Shown here piece after piece: positions 54,152 to 58,564 of a DNA stretch of 64,000 nt. Position numbers and translations under genes: made by a program. The stretch is taken from NCBI GenBank assembly GCA_902826565.1, contig CADEFF010000016.1, positions 1-64,000 on the forward strand, written 5' to 3'. The notes beneath the pieces were generated by a model. The model was given only the letters and a program-made list of their open reading frames with translations. It made no database searches and had not been told where the DNA came from. Source of the DNA: an uncultured Rhodospirillaceae bacterium. Its GTDB lineage: Bacteria; Pseudomonadota; Alphaproteobacteria; Dongiales; Dongiaceae. How positions within the stretch are numbered: position 1 is the stretch's first letter; each line of letters starts with the position of its first letter.

Positions 54152-54976
54152 TCAGGTGGGCTTTCGCGCCTTCAGGGAGAAGAGCAGCGGCAGGTTGGAG
54201 GCGCCGGGCGGCATGTCATACATGCCGTCCTCGGCCCGAACCATCGAGGGAAAGAGGCGCCAGGGCAGGCGCGCATGCTCATGGAACCATTCGAGCCGCA
54301 GCCCGGCCTCGAGCAATCCGCCGATCACGCTTGCGAGCGAATGGATCCACTCATGCGTCACCGTGTTGGCAAGCGTCTTGCCGTCCTCGGTGTAGGTCTC
54401 GGCCCCTTCGAACACCAGCGGCTCGGCGCCCTGGAAGTAGTTGTAGGTCGGAGTGATCGGGTCCTCGAGGCGCTTCTGCTCCAGCATGTTCGCGGCGGGG
54501 TGGCCTTCCAGCAGATAGAGGAACCCGCCCGGCGCCAGCAGCGTCTCGACCACCTTCGCCCAGCCGCGGATATCGGGCAGCCAGTTGATGGCGCCGACGG
54601 TCACATAGGCGATGTCGAAGCCGGCGCGCGGCAGCTTCGCGGGCGCGTCGTAGACATTGCCTTCGACGAAGGTCGCGGCGATGCCGGTTTCGGCCGCGAG
54701 CCCGCGGGCGATCGCGATCGCCTGGGGCGAGAAATCGTAGCCTGTCGCGACCGCGCCCCGACGGGCGAGCGACAGGGTATCGAGGCCGAAATGGCATTGT
54801 AGATGGACGAGCCGCTTGCCGGCGATGTCGCCGATCTCCTCGGACTCGATGGCGCCGAGCTTGTCCTTGCCGGCCTTGAACTCGGCGACGCCGTAGAACT
54901 CCGAGGCGGCATGAATCGGCGCCGCCTCGTCCCAGCGGCGGAGATTGACGTCGAAACTGCTGTCGTTCCGGCTCAT
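54152..54976 (-). CDS. Class I SAM-dependent methyltransferase
   Basis: 274-residue soluble protein with a Rossmann methyltransferase fold. Motif I is VHLQCHFGLDTLSLARRGA (with Cys-His in place of the common Gly-rich E/DxGxGxG), then ATGYDFSPQAIAIAR (SAM ribose Asp), and FDIAYVTVGAINWLPDI (motif IV). C-terminal WFHEHARLPWRLFPSMVR is typical of this uncharacterised family. Substrate unknown. The gene lies 96 bases after the antiporter on the same strand. Both genes interrupt the usual eno-ftsB adjacency. Confidence 0.83.
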   Translation of the reverse strand: MSRNDSSFDVNLRRWDEAAPIHAASEFYGVAEFKAGKDKLGAIESEEIGDIAGKRLVHLQCHFGLDTLSLARRGAVATGYDFSPQAIAIARGLAAETGIAATFVEGNVYDAPAKLPRAGFDIAYVTVGAINWLPDIRGWAKVVETLLAPGGFLYLLEGHPAANMLEQKRLEDPITPTYNYFQGAEPLVFEGAETYTEDGKTLANTVTHEWIHSLASVIGGLLEAGLRLEWFHEHARLPWRLFPSMVRAEDGMYDMPPGASNLPLLFSLKARKPT

Positions 54977-55072
54977 GGCGGACGCTCCGGGCGGGCGGGG
55001 TCGAAAGGCGGCGGACCATAGCGCCGGGGCCGGGTCGCGACAAGCCGGGCCGCGGTGCGCCCGGCGTCGCGA

Positions 55073-56890
55073 TCAGCGCCGCCGGAGGCGCGGCAGCCGT
55101 TCGGCGAAACGCCGACGCATCCACCAGGCGCGGGCGCGCCTGAGCCGGCGCACGATCGGAAGCCGTTCCTCCTCGGTCAGGAGCTCGAGGCCGACCTCGG
55201 CGATGCGGTCCTCCTCCATCGTCCGCACCACCAGCTCGGCATCGCCGGTCTTGACCCGGTCGCCGACCACGGGATCCGTCGCGAGAAGCCGGGCGACATA
55301 GTCGCCGAGGGTCTCCAGCGGATGGTCCAGCTCGATGGCAAGGCCGTACTGGCTCGCAAGCGCGCTTGCCGGCGTCTCCGCGGCGAAGCCGAACTCGCCG
55401 AGCTCGTCGAGCACCTCGGCGTGGCGCGGCGCCATCGGCACGAAGAGGCGATCGAGGGAGAGCTCATGTTCCGGCGGCACCAGCAGGATCACATAGTCGC
55501 CGGATTGCAGGCGCGCGAGCTGCGCCAGCTCGGCCACGGCGCCCTCGCGGATCACGCCGACGACGCGGGTGCGCTTGGGCAGCGGCAGGGCCGCGAAATC
55601 CTGATCGAGCGCCGGGCTTCCCGGCCGCACGCGATAGCCGGCGATCTCGCGGTCGGTCGCGGTCGGCAGCTCGAACAGCAACGCGCCTTCCTGGCTTTCC
55701 GGCTCGCTCGGCACTTCGAGCCCGAGCATCCGCGCCATGCCGAGCGCGGTCCAGCCCTGCACCAGCAGCGACATGATCACCACGACGAAGGCGATGTTGA
55801 AGAACGTCACGCCGATCGGCAGCCCGGCCACGACGGGGATGGAAGCGAGGAAGATCGGCACCACGCCGCGCAGCCCCACCCAGGAGATGAAGAGCTTCGC
55901 ACGCCATTCGATCCGAAACGGCAGGAGCGATGCCAGCACCGCGAGGGGACGGGCGATCAGCAGAAGCAGGACGGCGACGACGAGGGCGGGAAACAGGAAG
56001 TCCATCAGCGCCGTGGGCGTCACCAGCAATCCCAGCAGCAGGAACATGGCGATCTGCACGAGCCAGATGAAACCGTCATGAAACCGGCTGATGACCTGCC
56101 GCGCGCGGTAGGGACGGCTCGCCATGACGATGCCGGCGAGATAGACGGCCAGAAACCCGTTCGCGCCGACCACGTTGGCGAAGGCGAAGATGGTGACCGC
56201 GCCGGCCGCTGCCAGTATCGGATAGAGGCCGACCGCGATTTCGATCTTGTTGATGATCCATCGGAGCGCGACACCCCCGCCGATGCCGATCGCAGCGCCG
56301 CCGCCGAATTGCAGCGCCAGATCGATGCCGAGACGCCAGGGCTCGCGCGCGCCCGGATCCAGCAGCAGCTCGACCATGACGATGGTGAGGAACACGGCCA
56401 TCGGATCGTTCATGCCGGATTCCGCCTCGAGTGTGGCGCGCACGCGGCGATTGATGTCGCGGTCGCTCCGCTGCAGCAGCAGGAAGACGACGGCAGCGTC
56501 GGTCGAACTCAGGATCGCGCCGAGCAGCATCGCTTCCAGAGGCTGCAGCCCGAGCAGCAGCATCCCGAGCACCCCGACGATGAGCGCGGTGAGCACCACG
56601 CCGACCGATGCGAGCGATACCGCCGGCCAGAGCGCCAGGCGGAACACCGTGCGCGTGGTATGCAGGCCGCCGTCGAAGAGGATGAGCGCGAGACCGACCG
56701 AGCCCACCAGGAACACGGTCTCGAAATTCTCGAACTCGATGCCGCCGGGCCCGTCTTCGCCGGCAAGCATGCCGAGCAGCAGGAAGACGAGGAGGAGGGG
56801 CGCGCCGAGGCGGGAGGAATAGGTGCCGGCGAGGATGCTGAGGAAGATCAGCCCCGCTCCGATCAGGATGAGATGGTTCAGCGCGTCCAA
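55073..56890 (-). CDS. Potassium/proton antiporter, CPA1 family (CvrA/NhaP2-like)
   Basis: Membrane antiporter: about 12-13 hydrophobic segments up to residue ~390, with the CPA1 motifs LSSTDAAVVFLLLQRSDRDI and ESGMNDPMAVFLTI (Asp-Pro/Asn-Asp ion site), then cytosolic TrkA_C-like (~405-490) and transporter-associated CorC/HlyC-type domains (~500-580). I favour TTG 56890 (LDALNHLILIGAGL, 605 residues) because homologues begin with MDALN; ATG 56941 would add 17 residues (622 in total). Upstream lies the GANTC-rich region shared with ftsB. Confidence 0.88.
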   Translation of the reverse strand: MDALNHLILIGAGLIFLSILAGTYSSRLGAPLLLVFLLLGMLAGEDGPGGIEFENFETVFLVGSVGLALILFDGGLHTTRTVFRLALWPAVSLASVGVVLTALIVGVLGMLLLGLQPLEAMLLGAILSSTDAAVVFLLLQRSDRDINRRVRATLEAESGMNDPMAVFLTIVMVELLLDPGAREPWRLGIDLALQFGGGAAIGIGGGVALRWIINKIEIAVGLYPILAAAGAVTIFAFANVVGANGFLAVYLAGIVMASRPYRARQVISRFHDGFIWLVQIAMFLLLGLLVTPTALMDFLFPALVVAVLLLLIARPLAVLASLLPFRIEWRAKLFISWVGLRGVVPIFLASIPVVAGLPIGVTFFNIAFVVVIMSLLVQGWTALGMARMLGLEVPSEPESQEGALLFELPTATDREIAGYRVRPGSPALDQDFAALPLPKRTRVVGVIREGAVAELAQLARLQSGDYVILLVPPEHELSLDRLFVPMAPRHAEVLDELGEFGFAAETPASALASQYGLAIELDHPLETLGDYVARLLATDPVVGDRVKTGDAELVVRTMEEDRIAEVGLELLTEEERLPIVRRLRRARAWWMRRRFAERLPRLRRR

Positions 56891-56941
56891 GCTCGGCCCC
56901 CCGACCGCGTGCTGCCGCTGCGACCCATTCCCATGCCGCAC

Positions 56942-57059
56942 GAATCGTCTCGGTGAGTCAATTCGGCAACAGCACGACTCGTTTTATCCGCACCGAGTCG
57001 TTTCCGCTTGACCGGCGCGAATCGGGTGTGATTCGGTCGAGTCCATGGTCATTCGACTC
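56942..57059. promoter_or_regulatory. Cluster of eight GANTC (CcrM) methylation sites in the antiporter/ftsB promoter
   Basis: GANTC occurs at 56942, 56955, 56976, 56995, 57019, 57030, 57039 and 57055. Seven of eight are in a YGANTCR context (57039 ends in C). Two perfect inverted repeats are built from them: ACGACTCG/CGAGTCGT (56974-56981, 56994-57001) and TCGAGTC/GACTCGA (57037-57043, 57055-57061). TTGACC at 57008-57013 is a good -35 for ftsB, but the -10 position (ATTCGG) is poor, as expected for a promoter needing an activator. Confidence 0.85.
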
Positions 57060-57404
57060 GAAATCGCAAAACGCGTACGGCAGCTCGCCCTGCCGCTGCT
57101 CTGCGTTTCGGTGCTGGCCTATTTCCTCTTCCACACCATCCAGGGCGATCGCGGGGTGGTGGCGTGGCTCATGCTGAAGCAGGATCTGCGCGTCGCCGAT
57201 ACGCGGCTCGCCGCAATCGAGGACGAGCGCATGATGCTCGCCAATCGTGTCGCGCGCCTCAGCCCGAAGACGCTCGATGCCGATCTGCTCGAAGAGCAGG
57301 TGCGGCTGATGCTGAATCAGGCTTCGGAGAATGAGGTCGTGATCATGCAGGATCGGCTCCCCCCGATGACTCCCGACGAGCGGGCCACAAGCGACATTAA
57401 CTGA
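57045..57404 (+). CDS. ftsB: Septum formation initiator / cell division protein FtsB (DivIC family)
   Basis: Small divisome protein, 119 residues. Short cytoplasmic start, one membrane helix (LALPLLCVSVLAYFLFHTI, residues ~14-32), the Gly-Asp-Arg-Gly motif (QGDRGVVAWL) and a periplasmic coiled coil (RVADTRLAAIEDERMMLANRVARL) ending in the conserved LDADLLEEQVRLMLNQA. Its place between eno and pdhA is standard in alphaproteobacteria. No ribosome binding site is visible, so the mRNA may be leaderless. The promoter region is packed with GANTC sites, suggesting cell-cycle control. Confidence 0.9.
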   Translation: MVIRLEIAKRVRQLALPLLCVSVLAYFLFHTIQGDRGVVAWLMLKQDLRVADTRLAAIEDERMMLANRVARLSPKTLDADLLEEQVRLMLNQASENEVVIMQDRLPPMTPDERATSDIN

Positions 57405-57416
57405 AATCAAGTTAAT
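57396..57416. terminator. AT-rich stem-loop after ftsB
   Basis: ATTAACT (57396-57402) and AGTTAAT (57410-57416), 7-base loop, overlapping the ftsB stop codon; followed by TTCTGGATTTCTGTTT. A weak terminator or just part of the AT-rich pdh promoter region. Confidence 0.35.
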
Positions 57417-57454
57417 TTCTGGATTTCTGTTTACTGTCAAAAATTTACCGGTCC

Positions 57455-57483
57455 TTGCCATCCTTTCCCCGAAGGTCTAATTA
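57455..57483 (+). promoter_or_regulatory. Sigma-70 promoter candidate of the pdh operon
   Basis: TTGCCA (57455-57460) and TAATTA (57478-57483), spacer exactly 17, in a stretch (57395-57485) that is clearly AT-rich against the rest of the window. Leader to pdhA ATG 57563 about 70 bases. Confidence 0.6.
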
Positions 57484-57562
57484 ACGGGAAAAGGGGGCGC
57501 GCCGGCGTCTCCCCGGCTGCGATCGCCCAACGCTCGTGGCCGCCAGCTCCAGGGAGGCGTTC

Positions 57563-58564
57563 ATGGCAGCGACGACGGCGCGGAAGCCCAAGCCGAACGA
57601 GGCGGATTCCGCCAACCTTCTGAAATATTACCGCGACATGCTGCTGATCCGGCGCTTCGAGGAGAAGGCCGGCCAGCTCTACGGCATGGGCCTCATCGGC
57701 GGCTTCTGCCATCTCTATATCGGCCAGGAAGCGGTGGTGGTCGGGATGCTGGCCGCCGCGCGGGAAGGCGACAGCGTCGTCACCAGCTATCGCGACCACG
57801 GTCACATGCTCGCGACGGGCATGGACCCGAAGGGCGTCATGGCCGAGCTCACCGGGCGGCGCGGGGGTTATTCCAAGGGCAAGGGCGGCTCGATGCACAT
57901 GTTCAGCCGAGAGAAGCGCTTCTTCGGCGGCCACGGCATCGTCGGTGCCCAGGTGCCGATCGGCACCGGACTCGCCTTCGCCCATCGCTACAAGGAGGAC
58001 GGGGCCGTCTCGCTGACCTTCCTCGGCGACGGCGCGATCAACCAGGGCCAGGTCTACGAGTCCTTCAACATGGCCGCACTCTGGAAGCTGCCCGTGGTCT
58101 ACGTCATCGAAAACAACAAATACGGCATGGGCACGAGCGTCGAGCGCGCCGCGGCCGGCAAGGAGCTCTTCGCGCGCGGACAGCCCTACGGCATTCCCGG
58201 CCAGAAGGTTGACGGCATGGATGTGATGGCGGTGCGCCAGGCGGCGGAGAAGGCGATCGCCCATGCCCGCGGCGGAAAAGGGCCCTACATCCTCGAGGCG
58301 CAGACCTACCGCTATCGCGGCCACTCGATGTCGGACCCGGCAAAATATCGCAGCAAGGAAGAAGTCGCGAAGATGCGCCAGGAGCATGACCCGATCGACC
58401 ATCTTCGCCAGAAGCTGCTCGAGGAAGGCCACGCGGACGAGAACGCCCTCAAGACCATCGACCGCGAGGTGAAGGACATTGTCTCGATCGCGACCGAGTT
58501 CGCGCAGACGAGCCCCGAACCGGATCCGGCCGAGCTCTTCACCGACATCCTGATCGAGGCTTGA
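57563..58564 (+). CDS. pdhA: Pyruvate dehydrogenase E1 component subunit alpha
   Basis: Thiamine-diphosphate-dependent E1-alpha, 333 residues. [31 protein letters not shown], the TPP motif [20 protein letters not shown] ... IENN, and the phosphorylation-loop equivalent [22 protein letters not shown] 57563 has AGGGAGG 8 bases upstream; a GTG at 57536 is rejected. First gene of pdhA-pdhB-pdhC-GST-lpdA. Gap of 11 bases to pdhB. Confidence 0.97.

Follow-up and report, generated by a model that had tools for sequence, protein, structure and literature searches.

The window, by which we mean the whole 64,000-nucleotide stretch of DNA that was analyzed, carries the division gene ftsB. Its membership of the FtsB/DivIC family was indicated by a PF04977 match over the cut-off and by pdhA lying downstream, with eno upstream in most relatives. 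On the other side is a divergent K+/H+ antiporter gene, whose start is probably TTG 56890 because matches to the family models start only at residue 19-21; the antiporter-ftsB intergenic gap would therefore be about 154 bp. The antiporter gene and a methyltransferase-like gene (54152-56941) separate eno from ftsB in the window, and eno and ftsB are adjacent in most family relatives. The features of the locus, including eight candidate sites (GANTC) for the methylase CcrM, are as follows.

55073-56941, minus strand: K+/H+ antiporter gene, divergent from ftsB; TTG 56890 is the probable true start; judged to lie outside the system
56942-56946, no strand assigned: CcrM site 1, GAATC; auxiliary, upstream
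56955-56959, no strand assigned: CcrM site 2, GAGTC, in GTGAGTC; alignment column common to the eight-site relatives G003 and G008
56976-56980, no strand assigned: CcrM site 3, GACTC; upstream, not at a shared position
56995-56999, no strand assigned: CcrM site 4, GAGTC, in CCGAGTCG; directly 5' of the -35 element, kept in G003 and G008
57008-57013, plus strand: putative ftsB -35 element, TTGACC; TTGAC at a fixed distance from GATTC in 16/16 family genomes with ftsB, and also class-wide
57019-57023, no strand assigned: CcrM site 5, GAATC, the inner site; between -35 and -10, N free, 11-12 bp 5' of the -10 site class-wide
57027-57034, plus strand: TGTGATTC, with CcrM site 6 (GATTC, 57030-57034) in the putative -10 position and an extended-10-like TG; N is T in 76/78 class-wide cases
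57039-57043, no strand assigned: CcrM site 7, GAGTC; directly 5' of the ATG, near the predicted transcription start
57045-57404, plus strand: ftsB (DivIC/septum formation initiator family), 119 aa; PF04977 at E 1e-8, family orthologues; predicted to be leaderless from the GATTC-to-ATG distance
57055-57059, no strand assigned: CcrM site 8, GACTC; within the first ftsB codons, GAATC in G003 and lost in G008
57536-58564, plus strand: next gene, pdhA, encoding pyruvate dehydrogenase E1 alpha; TIGR03182 above cut-off, usual ftsB neighbor in relatives, context only

The gap between ftsB and pdhA (57397-57490) is AT-rich and contains TTAACTGAAATCAAGTTAA and CTAATTAAC. TTAACnGAA...AGTTAA stretches resembling it were seen in family relatives, and the stretch could possibly be CtrA-like or the promoter of the pdh operon.

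Exact matching placed GANTC at 56942, 56955, 56976, 56995, 57019, 57030, 57039, and 57055, the last falling within ftsB (ATG at 57045). These are the eight sites reported by the first-pass annotation, and seven of them have the YGANTCR context that it described, the exception being 57039 (CGAGTCC). When the contexts were read for the extended motif YGAKTCG/YGAKTCK on either strand, six of the eight sites fitted, both core sites included. The annotation had expected well under one site in such a stretch; at the local rate, 118 bp would hold 0.24, and eight or more have a Poisson probability of 2.5e-10. GANTC is depleted in the window as a whole, with 132 sites observed versus 357 expected from dinucleotide shuffles, and shuffling the 120 bp itself 200,000 times gave a maximum of 6.

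The density comparison was based on chain searches of the 4.19-Mb, 162-contig alphaproteobacterial genome plus fetched flanks. Forty-eight three-site GANTC chains (gaps <=20 bp) were detected genome-wide; 6 of the 48 represent the ftsB locus, and every other chain has four sites or fewer. The next-best loci among the fetched flanks hold five GANTC per 118 bp (on contigs C41 and C51 and at the ccrM promoter). By these searches the ftsB cluster is the densest in the genome and no other place found is comparable, which agrees with its earlier description as hyper-dense and unusual. Of the two perfect inverted repeats previously pointed out, the pairs are present, but they are a trivial outcome of GAATC/GATTC and GAGTC/GACTC pairing. 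A folded DNA or RNA element at the cluster was rejected, as the folding of the 118-bp stretch was unexceptional (z -1.9) and no Rfam match was obtained. An origin of the cluster in chance, composition, or a repeat element, which the automatic appearance of inverted repeats from GANTC pairs might have favored, was rejected as next to impossible on the Poisson probability, the density unique in the genome in the chain search, the 200,000 shuffles, and the fixed-register conservation.

The TTGACC at 57008 had been proposed as a -35 element with a poor -10, and a consensus scan indeed revealed no standard -10 downstream of it. GANTC sites lie between or overlap the putative -35 and -10 elements (57019 and 57030), in a register conserved in relatives. 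Because the scan finds no standard -10, we infer that the GATTC at 57030 serves as the -10 of the ftsB promoter, with a spacer that would be 15 or 16 bp. The distal GATTC is usually located 14-15 nt before the ATG, so that the 5' end of the ftsB mRNA is probably at the ATG or directly beside it, and the mRNA would be leaderless. A GATTC -10 as a general promoter class in this genome was rejected, since TTGAC-N15-18-GATTC gave 13 matches, about the chance level.

Among the 17 family genomes, ftsB was detected in 16, and a 27-bp core, TTGAC-N5/6-GANTC-N6/7-GATTC, lies directly 5' of the gene in all 16. A search with the core pattern returned one match at ftsB in 16/16 genomes, and this was the sole match in the genome in 11 of the 16. 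Eight sites are also present in two genomes of another genus, G003 and G008; in an alignment of the window with both, five site columns are common, and the N of the inner site changes from A to C with the GANTC kept. The cluster is therefore retained at ftsB in relatives.

Being situated between two divergent genes, the cluster could serve the antiporter gene, or both genes, and K+/H+ antiport had been suggested as a second target. However, the gene upstream of ftsB in most relatives is eno, not the antiporter, and relatives with eno or another gene 5' of ftsB still keep the GANTC promoter. The antiporter was not found beside ftsB in these neighborhoods and was rejected as the target, a role that we hold to be very unlikely. 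As relatives keep the cluster at ftsB though eno is usually upstream, the cluster belongs to ftsB.

The arrangement was then considered across the class. In 80 named ftsB loci, mostly of the Rhodospirillales type, the mean number of GANTC was 2.46 per 170 bp around the ftsB start versus 0.32 in the flanks. Among 129 genomes sampled from the whole class, those with the lowest-scoring ftsB being left unread, a -35 element followed 15-19 bp on by GANTC, before ftsB, was present in 70 of 98 ccrM-positive versus 8 of 31 ccrM-negative genomes (Fisher p 1.3e-5, with shared ancestry ignored). TTGAC is followed by a 16- or 17-bp spacer in 75/78 class-wide cases, and the distal site, usually with TGT before it, is GATTC in 76/78 and sits 14-15 nt 5' of the ATG in 56/78. 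The inner site is mostly 11 or 12 bp 5' of the distal site, and its N is A in 32, C in 12, G in 5, and T in 3 cases, a freedom that is expected of CcrM recognition. Paired sites are present in four ccrM-negative genomes, the assemblies of which are 86-93% complete and one of which has ccrM-positive congeners.

Marine Rhodospirillales-type genomes, most of them without GANTC at ftsB, have GGGTTTGGGACTGTGGA in common about 40-56 nt before the ftsB ATG (loci L038, L042, L044, L049, L061, L065, L066, L074, L077, L080, L084, L089, and L103). The core of GGGTTTGGGACTGTGGA pairs with about 10 nt directly before the ATG (GACTGTGGAT with GTCCACAGTC), with G-U pairs and compensated changes. In 13 of 14 tested loci, 8-10 of the 10 pairs can form, and 11 of those loci lie beyond 95% of shuffles. 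RNAalifold on the raw alignment returned no structure at these loci, and no Rfam match was found in four of them. The element looks like an uncharacterised leader hairpin of ftsB in place of the GANTC promoter.

Both ccrM and gcrA are encoded in the genome of the window. None of the three outcomes that the first-pass annotation had named as refuting (ccrM/gcrA absent, relatives lacking the cluster, many intergenic regions of equal density) was thus observed. The one CcrM (contig C10:39228-40316) contains PF01555 (N6_N4_Mtase) and PF18755 (RAMA), and among NCBIfam models the CcrM model fits it best (E 1.6e-188), yet the match is under the strict cut-off. GcrA (contig C74:15447-15878) matches PF07750 over nearly its entire length (E 4e-39). 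The start of ccrM (C10:39169-39263, locus L119) has five GANTC in 95 bp, including TTGAC-N4-GAATC-N5-GACTC (TTGACgacgGAATCgacccGACTC), and the upstream region of ccrM is a second candidate methylation-gated promoter and possibly part of a feedback loop. Upstream of gcrA (C74:15333-15368, locus L118), three GANTC occur in 36 bp about 80 bp 5' of the gene, and one more is nearer the ATG.

Judged from these sequence features, the ftsB promoter is likely to be of the sigma-70 type, gated by CcrM methylation, with GcrA as the likely reader, and timed by fork passage. The -35 would be TTGACC (57008), the spacer would hold the CcrM site at 57019, and the -10 would be filled by the GATTC at 57030, about one helical turn on; further GANTC sites upstream and directly downstream of this core would enlarge the cluster. 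Because the ftsB -10 is poor, transcription would depend on N6-methyl-adenine, either through a factor or through the state of the DNA. GcrA would be the likely reader in this species, recruiting sigma-70 polymerase to methylated GANTC promoters. After replication, GANTC stays hemimethylated up to the return of CcrM late in S phase; fork passage, together with the levels of GcrA and CcrM, would therefore set the time at which ftsB fires and hence the divisome assembles. These bacteria would thus probably couple the synthesis of a division protein to replication-fork passage.

GANTC might instead be only a lineage-specific promoter sequence, with methylation incidental and ftsB constitutive. 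A -10 that is nearly always GATTC (76/78) could be fixed by sigma recognition alone, and some ccrM-negative genomes retain the arrangement. Polymerase contact alone, however, leaves unexplained an inner site that keeps its G-A and T-C but not its N, at two spacings. Moreover, additional sites build up to 8-9, the arrangement is associated with ccrM, and GANTC is depleted elsewhere in the window; we therefore regard constitutive expression as improbable.

The choice of reader is less one-sided. The first-pass annotation had named GcrA, which fits the presence of gcrA in the genome, but the occurrence of the promoter follows that of ccrM, and clusters among the densest were seen in genomes with no gcrA detected. 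Among ccrM-positive genomes, whose assemblies are incomplete, the arrangement at ftsB was found in 24 of 30 gcrA-negative versus 46 of 68 gcrA-positive genomes, and clusters of 8-9 sites occur where gcrA is not detectable. A purpose-built GcrA profile recovered 10/10 positive controls, and in 15 gcrA-less genomes it gave one marginal match (E 0.0125) and 14 blanks. Class-wide, a PF07750 match is absent from 45/205 ccrM-positive genomes, in several separate families. The pairing of ccrM and gcrA may be looser than described; assembly gaps or a divergent GcrA possibly lie behind the absences. Since the densest clusters include genomes without detectable gcrA, GcrA appears unnecessary for the arrangement to persist, and as a sole explanation it is weakened.

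Methylation might accordingly act without GcrA, through direct sensing of methyl groups in the -10 and the spacer by RNA polymerase or a different reader, an alternative that we entertain tentatively and consider rather unlikely. In one variant, where the -10 is GATTCn and the spacer is 16 bp, the methylated top-strand A would be the base at -11, which has to be flipped out by sigma. The promoter is at least as common without gcrA as with it, clusters reach 8-9 sites in gcrA-less genomes while the profile detects its controls, and the -10 site is fixed as GATTC in register with the -35, all of which favor direct reading. On the other hand, gcrA is present in the genome to which the window belongs, the spacer that sets the -10 register could be either 15 or 16 bp, and a GcrA could go undetected through incomplete assembly or strong sequence divergence. 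In Caulobacter, furthermore, methylation at ftsN mattered, apparently, only with GcrA present (PMC3885167). Were direct reading correct, which is a speculative extension, this would be an ancestral alphaproteobacterial ftsB promoter with a -10 that itself serves for the reading of CcrM methylation, GcrA not being obligatory, and replication-dependent hemimethylation would switch a divisome gene even in lineages without gcrA.

We return to the preferred reading of a CcrM-gated ftsB promoter with GcrA as its reader in this species. A fixed-register methylation promoter, widely conserved at one divisome gene, would provide a single short element for testing the coupling of replication and division in many species, and the ccrM-positive lineages without detectable gcrA would constitute a natural experiment on the reader of the mark.

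GcrA binds methylated GANTC promoters and acts as a cofactor of sigma-70 (PMC3667746, PMC7403470), and mutation of GANTC cripples GcrA promoters (PMC3667746) and the ftsN promoter (PMC3885167). Caulobacter promoters with GANTC between -35 and -10 form a coherent temporal class whose activity falls at 40-60 min, and only 11 of 96 methylation-site promoters have two or more sites no further than 50 bp from the start (PMC4287350). The division genes activated by CcrM in Caulobacter are ftsZ, mipZ, ftsN, and ftsE, which are lower without CcrM (PMC3973325). According to a cross-class study of the GcrA regulon, division-gene control is well conserved in Caulobacterales and not universal outside, and the predicted regulon was built on conserved extended GANTC motifs (YGAKTCK) 5' of orthologues (PMC7987155). 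The gene ftsB was not found in the text of PMC3973325, is not named in the available text of PMC7987155 (figures aside), and was not found among published GcrA/CcrM targets in readable text. Among the papers searched, none joined GcrA, CcrM, and ftsB, and none joined ftsB, Caulobacter, and GANTC.

The ftsB promoter resembles the GcrA/CcrM sigma-70 promoters of Caulobacter crescentus (mipZ, podJ, ftsN, ctrA P1, and tipF) in having GANTC in the -35/-10 region together with a sigma-70-like -35, and in belonging to a cell-cycle or division gene in a genome with ccrM and gcrA. Like ftsZ, ftsN, mipZ, and ftsE of Caulobacter (PMC3973325), ftsB is a division gene with GANTC in its promoter, and C. crescentus mipZ has two juxtaposed sites (PMC3667746). 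It differs from the C. crescentus promoters in having eight sites rather than one to three, with GATTC filling the putative -10 position; in its target, ftsB, and predicted leaderless mRNA; and in its persistence in relatives without detectable gcrA. Whereas only those 11 of the 96 Caulobacter methylation-site promoters have more than one site so near the start (PMC4287350), three to four lie in the 50 bp before the ftsB ATG here. The GANTC-rich ccrM promoter in this genome is in line with the prediction in PMC7987155 that ccrM is a core target, whereas the wide conservation of the ftsB promoter outside Caulobacterales differs from what that study describes for division genes. As far as could be checked, the kind of promoter is already known, and what is new is ftsB as the target, the density of sites, the site in the putative -10, and the persistence of the arrangement without gcrA.
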